The notes beneath the pieces were generated by a model. That model was not told the DNA's origin. It searched no databases and saw only the letters and a list, made by a program, of their open reading frames with translations. Made by a program: the position numbers and the translations under genes. From Ruania suaedae (lineage in GTDB: Bacteria > Actinomycetota > Actinomycetes > Actinomycetales > Beutenbergiaceae): a stretch of DNA of 64,000 nt. The DNA lies in NCBI RefSeq assembly GCF_021049265.1, contig NZ_CP088018.1, positions 2,480,001-2,544,000 on the forward strand. Reading direction: 5' to 3'. Below, in pieces: positions 53,293 to 59,478 of this stretch (positions are counted from its first letter, which is position 1; each line of letters opens with the position of its first letter).

Positions 53293-54639
53293 GTGGTGAA
53301 CTCTCCCGGCCTGTGGCCCGCTCCGCTCGCGACCGGACCGCTCGAGGCGAGCGTGACGGTCCCCGGCTCGAAGTCGCTGACCAACCGCGCCCTGCCGCTG
53401 GCAGCGCTGGCCAACGCTCCCACCACCATCCGTGGTGCTCTGCGCTCGCGCGACGCCGAGCTGATGATCGGCGCACTGCGCGCGCTGGGCGCCCAGGTGG
53501 AGAGCTCCGACGGCGGAGCATCCGTGCGCGTGGTTCCGGCGCCCCTGCGCGGGGGCACGCCGATCGACTGCGGGCTGGCGGGCACCGTGATGCGGTTCGT
53601 CCCGCCGCTCGCGGCGCTCGCCGACGGGCCGGTGCTGCTCGACGGCGACCCGGGAGCCCGGGTGCGGCCCATGGGGCCGGTGCTGCGGGCGCTCGCGGCG
53701 CTCGGGGTGGCGGTGACCGCGCCGGGCGAGGCGCCGCGTGCCGGCGGCCCGCTCGATCCTGGGAGCTCGCCCGCGGCCGGCGACGTCCCCCAGTTCCTTC
53801 CGGTGGTGGTGCACGGCACCGGCCTGGTGCGCGGTGGCGAGATCGAGGTGGATGCGTCCACCTCCTCCCAGTTCGTCTCGGGGTTGCTGCTGGCCGCCCC
53901 CCGGTTCGAACACGGCCTGACGCTGCACCACGTGGGCGAGGTGCTGCCCAGCCAGCCGCACATCGACATGACGATCGCCGTGCTGCGCGAGCGGGGCGTC
54001 GAGGTCGACGACATCGCACCCGGGAAGTGGCGCGTCGAGCCCGGGGAGATCGCCGGCGGCGAGGTGGTGATCGAGCCGGATCTGTCGAACGCGGGGCCGT
54101 TCCTGGCCGCGGCACTGGCGGCGGGAGGCCGGGTGAGTGTGCCGCACTGGCCGGCCTCGACCACGCAGCCGGGTGCGTTGCTTCCGGAGATCCTCACCAC
54201 CCTGGGTGGCTCGGTCACACTCGAGGGGGGCGTGCTGACGGTCACCGGATCGGGCCAGGTGCAGGCGGCGGACCTGGACCTGACCGCGGCCGGGGAGCTC
54301 GCGCCGACGATCGCCGCCCTGCTGGCCCTGGCACCTGGTGAGTCCCGGTTGACGGGGATCGCGCACCTGCGAGGTCACGAGACGGACCGGCTGGCGGCGC
54401 TGGTCACCGAGATCACCCGGCTCGGCGGCCACGCCGAGGAACTGGCCGACGGGCTGCTGATCCGCGGCGGCGGCCTGCACGGGGCCGACGTGGCGACCTA
54501 TCACGACCATCGGATGGCGACCTTCGCCGCGATCGTCGGGCTCGCCGTCGACGGGGTGCAGGTGGAGGACGTGGGCACCACGGCCAAGACGTTGCCCGAC
54601 TTCCCGACGATGTGGCACGCGATGCTCGGCCGGCGATGA
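53293..54639 (+). CDS. aroA: 3-phosphoshikimate 1-carboxyvinyltransferase (EPSP synthase)
   Basis: 448 residues, two inside-out alpha/beta domains. Substrate motifs: VPGSKSLTNRALPLAALA (shikimate-3-phosphate Lys and Ser), CGLAGTVMRFVPP, DGDPGARVRPMGPV (Arg), STSSQFVSGLLLAAP and DYHDHRMA-type segment TYHDHRMATFAAI. It joins phosphoenolpyruvate to shikimate-3-phosphate for aromatic synthesis. The glyphosate-contact loop reads LAGTVMRF, where most sensitive enzymes have NAGTAxR; class is uncertain. Start is a GTG that may be leaderless. Overlaps rsgA by 4 bases (ATGA). Confidence 0.96.
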   Translation: MVNSPGLWPAPLATGPLEASVTVPGSKSLTNRALPLAALANAPTTIRGALRSRDAELMIGALRALGAQVESSDGGASVRVVPAPLRGGTPIDCGLAGTVMRFVPPLAALADGPVLLDGDPGARVRPMGPVLRALAALGVAVTAPGEAPRAGGPLDPGSSPAAGDVPQFLPVVVHGTGLVRGGEIEVDASTSSQFVSGLLLAAPRFEHGLTLHHVGEVLPSQPHIDMTIAVLRERGVEVDDIAPGKWRVEPGEIAGGEVVIEPDLSNAGPFLAAALAAGGRVSVPHWPASTTQPGALLPEILTTLGGSVTLEGGVLTVTGSGQVQAADLDLTAAGELAPTIAALLALAPGESRLTGIAHLRGHETDRLAALVTEITRLGGHAEELADGLLIRGGGLHGADVATYHDHRMATFAAIVGLAVDGVQVEDVGTTAKTLPDFPTMWHAMLGRR

Positions 54640-55655
54640 GTCAGAGCCGGCACTCCTGGAGCGAGGCCGACGTCCGCGTGCGGCCGAACCGCAAGGGGTC
54701 GCGCCCACGGAGCAAGCAGCGCCCTGAGCACGCCGACGCCGTGCCCGCGCTGGTGACCGCGGTCGATCGCGGCCGGTACCAGGTGCTCACCGACGCCGGC
54801 ACACCGGTGGTCGCGATCAAGGCGCGGGAGCTGCGGCGTGGCGCCGTGGTGGTCGGGGACCGGGTGGACGTGGTGGGCGACGTCTCCGGCGCGGAGGGCT
54901 CGCTCGCGCGCGTGGTGCGGGTGCAGCAGCGGCGTACGCTGCTGCGTCGCAGCGCCGATGACACCGATCCCACCGAGCGCGGCATCGTCGCCAACGCCGA
55001 CCAGCTGGTGATCGTGACGGCCCTCGCCGATCCCGAACCCCGCCCCCGGATGGTGGACCGTTTCCTGGTGGCCGCCTTCGATGCGGGGATGGACACGTTG
55101 CTGGTGCTGACCAAGGCCGACCTGGTGAGCGCGGCCGATGCTGCCGGGTTCGCGGAGCGCTATGCGGCCCTGGACGTCCGCGCCGTGGCCACCCGCCATG
55201 CCCGGGGCAGCACGGACTGGGTGGAGGCGGTCGGTGAGCACCTCGACGGGCGGGTCTCGGTGCTGGTCGGTCACTCCGGCGTCGGGAAGTCCACGCTCGT
55301 GAATGCCCTCGTCCCGGACGCCCACCGCGCGACCGGCGGTGTGAACGAGGTGACCGGCCGGGGCCGGCACACCAGCTCCTCCGCGGTGGCGCTGCCACTG
55401 CCCGCGGGCGGATGGATCATCGACACCCCCGGCGTGCGCTCCTTCGGGCTGGCCCACGTGGACCCGGCGCGTTTCGTGGCCGCCTTCGAGGACCTGGCCC
55501 AGGTGGCGGCTGAGTGCCCCCGCGGCTGCACACACATGGCCTCCGCGCCCGACTGCGCCCTGGACCCGTGGGCCGAGGCCGGTACCGAGGCCGACCGCGC
55601 GCGGCTGGACTCCTTCCGGCGCCTGCTGACGAGCCGGCAGGCCGCGGACGCCTGA
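54636..55655 (+). CDS. rsgA: Ribosome small-subunit biogenesis GTPase RsgA
   Basis: 339 residues. An OB-fold is followed by a circularly permuted GTPase: G4 LTKADL comes before G1 GHSGVGKSTLVNAL and G3 IIDTPGVRSF, then a zinc domain with CPRGCTHMASAPDC. It assists late 30S assembly. The ATG overlaps the aroA stop. The stop is 15 bases from the left 49-bp inverted repeat, with no terminator in between. Confidence 0.95.
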   Translation: MSQSRHSWSEADVRVRPNRKGSRPRSKQRPEHADAVPALVTAVDRGRYQVLTDAGTPVVAIKARELRRGAVVVGDRVDVVGDVSGAEGSLARVVRVQQRRTLLRRSADDTDPTERGIVANADQLVIVTALADPEPRPRMVDRFLVAAFDAGMDTLLVLTKADLVSAADAAGFAERYAALDVRAVATRHARGSTDWVEAVGEHLDGRVSVLVGHSGVGKSTLVNALVPDAHRATGGVNEVTGRGRHTSSSAVALPLPAGGWIIDTPGVRSFGLAHVDPARFVAAFEDLAQVAAECPRGCTHMASAPDCALDPWAEAGTEADRARLDSFRRLLTSRQAADA

Positions 55656-55670
55656 GCGCCGGCCACCCAG

Positions 55671-55719
55671 GGGCCGAATATTTGACCCCTTCTCGGGTTG
55701 CACCCTGACTTTCGGACCC
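55671..55719 (+). repeat. Left 49-bp inverted repeat of the nuclease-like cassette
   Basis: The unit starts GGGCCGAATATTTGACC and ends TGACTTTCGGACCC, immediately before the ATG at 55720. It matches the complement of 56707-56755 at 44 of 49 positions. It is itself an imperfect palindrome: GGG and CCGAA at one end pair with TTCGG and CCC at the other across a single bulge, and the centre GGGT-TGC-ACCC can form a small hairpin. Confidence 0.9.
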
Positions 55720-56694
55720 ATGGAACGGCGGCTGTGGATAGCGAGCACACCGGTCGGCAATCCCGTGGACCCTGGTCCGATGCAGCGTGCTCCCCTACCG
55801 CCCGACCTGGCGGCCCGCCCGTTCCTTGTCCGCGAGGCCCGCAGGCGCGGGGTCGGGCAGAGCCGGCTCTACGACTCCGGCCTCTACCGCCCGACGCACG
55901 GCGTGCGCACCGTGAGAGAGCCGGCGAGCGTCGTCGAACTCGCTCGAGCCACGGCACACGCCCTCCCTGACGACGCCGCCTTCTCCGGCGTGACGGCAGC
56001 CGAGATCCACCAGCTGCGCCTACCCGTCAGACCCGAGCTGACCGACGATCTCGAGGTGATGCGGGAGACCGACCGAGCGCGAGTCCGCCGCCGGGGGTGC
56101 GCACATCAGAAGGGACTGGAGTTGCGTGAGGTGGTTGTCGTCGCAGGCGTCCGCGTCACGGGCCTGGTCGATACGTGGTGCGACCTGGCCAGCAGAATGT
56201 CCATCATCGATCTCGTGGTCCTCGGCGATTCCATCGCCAATCGCCTGGGATCGCTGGATCCGCTCCTGGAGCGGGTCAGTCGTCGGCGGGCCCGTGAGAT
56301 CGGCCGGGTACGGCGAGCGGCACGATGGGTCAGAGTCGGCTCACGCTCGCACATGGAGTCACGCGTCCGCCTGGCGGTCGCATGGGCACGGCTACCGGAC
56401 CCCGAACTCAACGTGGCACTCGACGACGTCATCGGAGGCTGGATCGGTGAAGGCGACCTGGTCTGGCAGGATAGGCGGGTCGTCGTCGAGTACCAGGGCA
56501 AGGACCACTTCACCCCCGACCGCGGCCCCGCCGACATCACCCGACGGGCCGCTGCTGAGGCCAACGGCTGGACCTACATCGAGATCGTCGCGGCCGACTA
56601 CTACAACAGCGCACGTCGTCACCAGTTCCTCACGCGGCTGGGACACGCTCTCGGTTGCCGCGTCGATACCGACGACTCCTACCGTGAGCGCTGA
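55720..56694 (+). CDS. AbiEi-like winged-helix plus Vsr/DUF559-like nuclease domain protein
   Basis: 324 residues (304 if started at the ATG at 55780, where family members usually begin). N-terminal part (PFLVREARRRGVGQSRLYDSGLYRPTHGV) resembles the AbiEi antitoxin winged helix; C-terminal part (ESRVRLAVAWARLP, GEGDLVWQDRRVVVEYQGKDHF, DITRRAAAEANGWTYIEI) resembles the Vsr/DUF559 nuclease fold, with Asp and the E-x-Q variant of the E-x-K motif. Such genes are scattered as singletons in actinobacteria; function unknown. There is no ribosome binding site before either ATG. It is bounded on both sides by the 49-bp inverted repeats, and codon use is looser than in its neighbours. Confidence 0.75.
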   Translation: MERRLWIASTPVGNPVDPGPMQRAPLPPDLAARPFLVREARRRGVGQSRLYDSGLYRPTHGVRTVREPASVVELARATAHALPDDAAFSGVTAAEIHQLRLPVRPELTDDLEVMRETDRARVRRRGCAHQKGLELREVVVVAGVRVTGLVDTWCDLASRMSIIDLVVLGDSIANRLGSLDPLLERVSRRRAREIGRVRRAARWVRVGSRSHMESRVRLAVAWARLPDPELNVALDDVIGGWIGEGDLVWQDRRVVVEYQGKDHFTPDRGPADITRRAAAEANGWTYIEIVAADYYNSARRHQFLTRLGHALGCRVDTDDSYRER

Positions 56695-56706
56695 TCACCG
56701 CTCCGC

Positions 56707-56755
56707 GGGCCCGAAACTCAGGGTGCAACCCGAGAATGGGTCACACATTCGGCCC
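56707..56755 (-). repeat. Right 49-bp inverted repeat of the nuclease-like cassette
   Basis: Complement of the left unit at 55671-55719 with five mismatches (positions 10, 12, 19, 39 and 46 of the unit). It begins 13 bases after the nuclease stop codon and ends 27 bases before the sdhB stop codon. No target-site duplication is visible outside the pair. Confidence 0.9.
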
Positions 56756-56782
56756 GGGGAGCCGGGCCGGGGACCGGCCGGT

Positions 56783-57525
56783 TCAGCGACGGTGGGCCAG
56801 CGCCCCGAGCACGTCGCGCTGCATCCGGGAGATCAGGTCGATCTGGATGCCCTTGGGGCAGGCGGCGGTGCATTCACCGATCTGGGTGCAGCCACCGAAG
56901 CCCTCGTGGTCGTGCTGGGCGACCATGTCCAGGGCGCGGGAGTCGCGCTCGGGCTGGCCCTGCGGGAGCAGACCCAGGTGCGCCACCTTGGCCGCGACGA
57001 ACAACGACGCCGACCCGTTCGGGCAGGCCGCCACGCACGCACCGCAGCCGATGCAGGTGGCCGCGTCGAAGGCGGCGTCCGCGTCGGCCTTGGGGATCGG
57101 CACGGCGTGCGCGTCCGGCGCGGTGCCCGTCGGGGCGCTGATGTAGCCGCCGGCCTGGATGATCCGATCGAACGAGGACCGGTCCACCACCAGGTCCTTG
57201 ATGACGGTGAACGGCTCGGCCCGCCACGGCTCGATGTCGATGACGTCGCCGTCGGAGAAGCTGCGCATGTGCAGCTGGCAGGTCGTCACCAGGCTGTTCG
57301 GCCCGTGCGCAAGTCCGTTGATGACGAGCCCGCACGCTCCGCAGATGCCCTCACGGCAGTCGCTGTCGAAGGCGATCGGGTCGTCCCCGGCCATCGTGAG
57401 CTGCTCGTTGAGCACGTCGAGCATCTCCAGGAACGACATATCCGGCGAGACGTCGGCCACCTGGTAGGTCTGCATCGCGCCGGGCACGTCGGAGTTCTGC
57501 TGCCGCCAGATGCGAAGGGTGATGT

Positions 57526-57529
<4 letters not shown>
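56783..57529 (-). CDS. sdhB: Succinate dehydrogenase iron-sulphur subunit
   Basis: 248 residues. [2Fe-2S] ligands in [10 protein letters not shown] and a later Cys (TTCQLH); [4Fe-4S] and [3Fe-4S] ligands in [12 protein letters not shown] and [14 protein letters not shown]. It passes electrons from FAD in SdhA to the membrane quinone site. GTG overlaps the sdhA stop (GTGA), with GGAG just before it. The gene end faces the nuclease cassette. Confidence 0.96.

Positions 57530-59478
<1,949 letters not shown>

Follow-up and report, generated by a model that had tools for sequence, protein, structure and literature searches.

Closest Described Systems

Among the described systems closest to the one reported here is the REPtron (RAYT/TnpA-REP), in which, going by the portions of PMC3733652 and PMC6006769 available to us, a RAYT gene is flanked by palindromes and its dispersed, gene-specific repeats have a patchy distribution. 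CGTC repeats, by the abstract of PMC3733652, apparently lack a dedicated transposase. The accessible text of PMC12306157 names no RAYT, transposase or endonuclease and has one table line on Actinomycetota. On the protein side, the available part of PMC3943268 describes I-Bth0305I, a Vsr-like homing enzyme, as dimerising on a target of nearly 60 bp, and that of PMC3985639 describes AbiEi as binding inverted repeats in its own promoter and repressing that promoter. No description of DUF559/Vsr-type nucleases paired with dispersed palindromes was found in the open-access literature, a scope that most subscription papers fall outside, and among open-access papers using the term DUF559 no title or abstract start describes such repeats.

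The gene examined here lies in a 64,000-nucleotide stretch of the Ruania suaedae genome (the window). Like a REPtron, it has palindromes on both sides, further copies of which are scattered between genes, and its relatives have gene-specific repeat families, several per genome, with a patchy distribution. It differs in its enzyme, which is predicted to be of the Vsr/DUF559 type with an AbiEi-like domain whereas the REPtron has an HUH/Y1 transposase, and in its units, which are longer and lack the GTAG tetranucleotide at one end. Since the enzyme is not an HUH transposase, we do not file the system as a REPtron despite its REPtron anatomy. The comparison with REP-associated transposases made in the original prediction was nonetheless the right lead, as the repeat is found dispersed, goes with the gene across the genus and is specific to it.

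Repeats and Layout of the Locus

The features of the locus are as follows:

54636..55655, + strand: rsgA, left neighbour (ORF with inferred start; orthologs in 23/23 genomes searched)
55671..55719, + strand: left 49-bp palindromic unit (arm reaches 55728)
55732..55742, + strand: DnaA-box-like motif CTGTGGATAGC
55780..56694, + strand: palindrome-paired nuclease gene, 304 aa (alternative in-frame start 55720)
55873..56289, + strand: PADLOC AbiEi-matching region, residues 32-170 of 304 (E 8.5e-4)
56356..56544, + strand: nuclease-domain residues E193 to R255 (E193, D226, E237, G240, H243, D252)
56707..56755, − strand: right 49-bp palindromic unit
56783..57529, − strand: sdhB, right neighbour (inferred start)

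The original prediction was of two 49-bp inverted repeats around one gene, and this held: the left and right units agree at 44/49 positions in inverted orientation, and a repeat search of the locus gave 58-nt arms at 86% identity. The local inverted-repeat score is 41, whereas the highest among 966 random window positions of the same spacing is 24. A chance inverted repeat is ruled out by this difference and by the 2/170 control genes with inverted flank similarity (see below). Each unit can be drawn as had been proposed, its outer palindrome bulged and enclosing a hairpin that is likewise bulged; in single-strand DNA folding the stability of the arms was not unusual (z −0.16 and −1.85). A check of pair covariation, on seeds picked for conservation, found 0 compensatory changes, so an RNA-type structure is unsupported, and no known RNA family was found in 54500-58000.

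The gene lies alone between the convergent rsgA and sdhB, and both the ORFs and the neighbour comparison agree with the predicted cassette holding no other gene. The left copy does end directly before an ATG (55720), but this ATG is probably not the true start. Because homologs align from about residue 21 (M21, 55780) of the long reading, the gene probably starts at 55780, which would place the end of the left repeat 60 bp upstream of the start and leave room for the DnaA-box-like motif in between. On the right, the copy starts 12 bases past the stop codon (56692-56694) and not the 13 first given.

The Nuclease Gene and Its Product

From its profile matches, the protein is predicted to combine an AbiEi-like DNA-binding domain with a nuclease of the Vsr/DUF559 type. 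Of these two domains, both named in the original prediction, the first is found in the window protein itself (E 8.5e-4), whereas the second is weak there (MTES_1575 REase, E 0.11) and is matched by many family members. The alignment (A1) took in 53/69 family members, and at E ≤ 0.01 MTES_1575 is matched by 42/53, DUF559 by 25/53 and one AbiEi model by 33/53. E193 is invariant over the 66 members of the tree, from which L109, L121 and L129 (truncated or aberrant) were excluded, as they were from the residue counts; D226, E237, H243 and D252 are kept in 62-63/66. An AlphaFold model built from two sequences had a pLDDT of 37. The absence of a transposase also held up, with no HUH/Y1 or other transposase family match for the window protein or the family in Pfam and NCBIfam.

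Against the PDB, the family profile matched 3hrl (E 3.2e-4) and the mobile-intron protein 3r3p (E 0.0054, over an alignment of 59 positions only). We take 3r3p to be the catalytic domain of I-Bth0305I, and this match suggests a catalytic domain that may be related to that of the free-standing EDxHD (Vsr-like) homing endonucleases. Unlike an I-Bth0305I-type gene, the gene here is not in an intron or intein, and it is flanked by and linked to dispersed palindromes. With the AbiE type IV toxin-antitoxin systems it shares the AbiEi-like N-terminal region, but here a nuclease domain is part of the same protein and the adjacent genes, rsgA and sdhB, include no AbiEii nucleotidyltransferase. An addiction cassette, which had been suggested, gained no support. 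The related reading, in which the gene serves defence or belongs to a toxin-antitoxin system and the repeats have nothing to do with it, is very improbable; the AbiEi-like domain would fit it, as would the Vsr-type REase domain, which the accessible part of PMC3710099 also places in proposed conflict systems, but the missing partner gene speaks against it and it leaves the dispersed palindromes unexplained.

The nuclease gene is under purifying selection, as judged from a dN/dS of 0.07-0.25 over seven ortholog pairs; five of these pairs have a dS close to 0.9 or higher. For comparison, dN/dS between the congeners G003 and G006 is 0.05 for rsgA and 0.02 for sdhB.

The rsgA-sdhB Junction in the Genus

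The genome of the window (G000) was compared with seven congeners (G001-G007). An ortholog (67-70% amino acid identity) with the same repeat occupies this junction in G001, G003 and G006, whereas in G002, G004, G005 and G007 the rsgA and sdhB matches are only about 10 to 175 bp apart. The gene and its repeats are therefore not at this locus in all relatives, being present in 4/8 genus genomes. The search for an empty site in relatives found a clean one in G004, where the stop codons of rsgA and sdhB meet at TGATCA. In a tree of rsgA and sdhB, gene-less G004 groups with the carrier G001, inside the carriers. Only one relative came out of a scan of named genomes, located on a contig of Ruania rhizosphaerae.

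At the G005 junction (L062/L246) there is a near-perfect palindrome of about 60 bp without a gene. Exact copies of its core, CTTTTGTGACAC, number 3 in G005, none of them at the family matches listed for that genome, and 0 in the seven other genus genomes.

With the gene at the same junction in these four genomes and its divergence purifying, the gene is vertically inherited within the genus, where movement of the gene itself lacks support. Inverted repeats around one gene together with solo non-coding copies are also seen with insertion sequences and their MITEs, but here there is no transposase match and no target-site duplication is visible, the G004 flanks being too diverged for exact ends.

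Dispersed Units in the Genus

The core TTCTCGGGTTNCACCC, at ≤1 mismatch, occurs 13 times in G006, 8 in G003, 3 in G000 and once each in G001 and G005, the G005 match not being a unit by inspection; there were 0 in G002, G004 and G007, and the reversed-pattern control gave 0 in all eight genomes. Units were then counted with R1, a covariance model of 22 units from G000, G003 and G006 among others, seeded at ≤1 mismatch in a 16-base core and thus favouring conserved copies. R1 found at least 15 units in G000, at least 5 in G001, at least 28 in G003 and at least 32 in G006, these being lower bounds as 150 of about 1,560-2,600 first-look candidates were scored per genome. With the same 150 candidates scored per genome, there were none in the four gene-less congeners or in four other genomes. 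Four carriers against four non-carriers are one genus and not eight independent cases.

Two of the G000 units are at the gene and 13 are at 12 other loci. A closed two-copy cassette is ruled out by these numbers, with at least 15 units in the genome and most of them without the gene. The minimal unit originally envisaged is thus right as to the repeats around the gene, and incomplete as a closed two-repeat picture since most copies lie elsewhere. The proposed search of the genome and its relatives for the 49-bp unit accordingly returned mostly solo copies. The 22 aligned units start with GGGCC or GTGCC and end with GGCCC, GACCC or similar, with no GTAG tag.

By the gene caller, 28/31 solo sites examined in four genomes are intergenic, and these 31 sites showed no clear excess at convergent gene ends. 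G003 and G006 have many units in common at orthologous positions. At two sites that could be matched between the genomes, units are found in G000, G003 and G006, and in G004 there is just a short piece of DNA free of units, with flanks too diverged to fix the exact ends of an inserted unit; G001, G002, G005 and G007 had no unit at either site (for the second, in the 200 bp read beside one flank). The number of copies differs at one site, with three units in G006, two in G003, and a complete plus a partial copy in G000.

Flanking Repeats and an Upstream Motif across the Family

We took 70 loci, 30 from the first homolog search, 37 from further hits and 3 junction loci. All hold a family ORF except L132 (69/70), and L032, whose upstream flank is too short, was left out of the flank and motif tests, giving 68 testable loci from across the order. 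The 170 control genes came from 20 arbitrary 20-kb stretches and the window, and flank similarity was called significant when beyond all 200 shuffles. Inverted similarity between the upstream and downstream flanks was found at 46/68 family loci against 2/170 controls, and direct similarity at 43/68 against 3/170; 54/68 have one or the other and 14/68 have neither. A flank stem score of at least 12 is more frequent than in controls but far from universal, with 21/69 upstream and 19/69 downstream against 7/170 and 16/170 in controls. Family genes lie between convergent neighbours in 38/69 cases (controls 28/170) and between neighbours that both point away in 0/69 (controls 28/170).

Further family matches in G000 are at C1:928063-928959 (L094), C1:2657317-2658174 and C1:3302459-3302827, the last a fragment, and L094 has no significant flanking inverted repeat. 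L109 (G001) and G005:C1:379534-380255 look split or truncated, which suggests that some copies decay.

TGTGGAY or its complement is found within 200 bp upstream at 52/68 family loci against 5/170 controls, and within 200 bp downstream at 2/68 against 6/170. Of 60 boxes, 53 fit TGTGGAYRR, a class that includes the complement of TTGTCCACA, which the available part of PMC4285127 lists as a high-affinity DnaA box of Streptomyces coelicolor and Mycobacterium tuberculosis. DnaA may bind this putative box, going by the motif. That so highly diverged a family should have a DnaA-box-like motif upstream, at a distance that varies little, is unusual for a nuclease gene.

Repeat Identity Follows the Protein

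Two loci were taken to share a flanking repeat at a score of at least 26. By amino acid identity, 17/20 pairs share repeats at ≥60%, 3/8 at 50-60% and 11/2,117 below 50%, five of these last 11 being attributed to common rsgA/sdhB neighbour sequence, and no same-genome pair does so (0/38). In these comparisons the repeat sequence tracks the protein clade and not the genome. Most repeat-sharing pairs are syntenic, as vertical descent predicts; among pairs of ≥50% identity without synteny on either side, 3/8 share repeats (L030/L039, L051/L110 and L050/L051).

It had been allowed that the repeats might be generic palindromes with no link to this gene family, and the data speak against this, no unit being found among the candidates scored in gene-less congeners and the repeat following the protein clade. 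The same two results already disfavour the reading that the repeats are older host elements, such as terminator-like palindromes, among which the nuclease gene merely inserts; the mostly intergenic solo sites (28/31) and the frequent position of family genes between convergent genes (38/69 against 28/170) would suit it, and we regard it as improbable. Least probable of the readings weighed here is that the palindromes are spread by a transposase, RAYT or other, encoded at another place in the genome, with the nuclease gene as a passenger, for although the units are REP-like in form, the gene they flank is repeatedly this nuclease, with clade-specific repeats.

Dispersed solo copies were found in two other genera besides Ruania. 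GGTGCGATCTCA, the core of the junction elements of genus g4, has 18 copies in G010, 21 in G017, 10 in G020 and 5 in G023, with 0 in G000 and 0 in the control. Twenty of its places in G010 and G017 were read, and most are palindromic by eye (L167, L171 and L176 are not). In 1.2 Mb of G028 solo copies were found for 3/6 paralogs (L095, L096, L097) and one weak hit for L031, with no dispersed copy for L103 or L119 and 0 in the reversed-sequence control. Many family genes thus appear each to have an intergenic palindrome family of their own (49 to about 61 bp here), flanking the gene on both sides and often dispersed where looked for. Carriage by plasmids or phages found no backing, with no detectable relative in plasmid and phage collections at 1e-5 and none in viral contigs, by a search that reaches close relatives only.

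In G010 and G017 of genus g4 the rsgA-sdhB junction holds a family member from a distant clade whose palindromes differ, so this place has probably been occupied more than once. This, and the three non-syntenic repeat-sharing pairs, give indirect support to gene movement on a wider scale; the mobile unit of the original prediction may thus apply at that scale, and lacks support within the genus as far as the gene is concerned. In genus g8, three family members from another clade, L043, L045 and L046, are located 3′ of sdhB, and it is possible that the sdhB neighbourhood is a hotspot for family genes that includes this third genus. In G023 (L132) the rsgA-sdhB gap is about 4.3 kb and holds no family gene, yet this genome has 5 copies of the g4 core, possibly the result of decay after gene loss.

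Proposed Mechanism

The reading that we prefer, with a probability of about 0.5, is that the window gene belongs to a large group of actinobacterial nucleases paired with palindromes, each protein binding and cutting its own palindrome and host repair spreading the copies. The pairing of nuclease and repeat is well supported by the comparisons above. It is likely that the protein binds its palindrome, and it would do so through the N-terminal domain and probably as a dimer. We infer that it cuts or nicks at or near the palindrome, and that host repair of the break would copy the palindrome, and rarely the gene too, into new intergenic sites. The pair could then persist in the manner of a REP-RAYT pair or a free-standing homing endonuclease, and a DnaA-responsive promoter may couple the system to replication. 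Since a hydrolytic nuclease has no ligation step, spread to unit-free sites would need a host contribution that is unexplained. Also pointing against this reading are the 14/68 loci without a flanking repeat, the two G028 paralogs without a dispersed copy and the third with one weak hit, the G001 count of at least 5 units, the 5 copies in G023 without a junction gene, and the lack of a clear excess of solo units at convergent gene ends.

The main rival is a domesticated DNA-binding factor, with the flanking units as operators for autoregulation and the dispersed units as a selected regulon or chromosome landmarks that are not mobile. We rank it first among the alternatives because AbiEi binds and represses through inverted repeats in its own promoter (PMC3985639, in the part available), and the purifying selection on the nuclease gene and the many units at orthologous sites of G003 and G006 would also fit. 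However, autoregulation needs no downstream copy, each paralog in one genome has different repeats, unit numbers vary among carriers (at least 5 to at least 32) and the catalytic residues are conserved, and we consider such a regulator rather unlikely.

If the nuclease does cut and spread its palindrome, the family might, more tentatively, be a second and independent REP-RAYT-like design in Actinobacteria. This design would have a hydrolytic Vsr/DUF559-type nuclease, a fast-changing AbiEi-type recognition domain, cutting of its own palindrome, copying by host repair into intergenic DNA, several specificities per genome and a DnaA-linked promoter.

Significance

The origin and spread of extragenic palindromes are open for families without a RAYT. 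Here the clade of the nuclease predicts the repeat in each of several unrelated palindrome families, and this makes recognition and spread testable pair by pair. The pairs point to a kind of system, little known so far, that spreads repeats or reads them. Should binding be confirmed, the family would amount to a naturally occurring library of long-palindrome readers, and a role could be given to common genes of actinobacteria that now bear only a DUF559 or AbiEi-like annotation.
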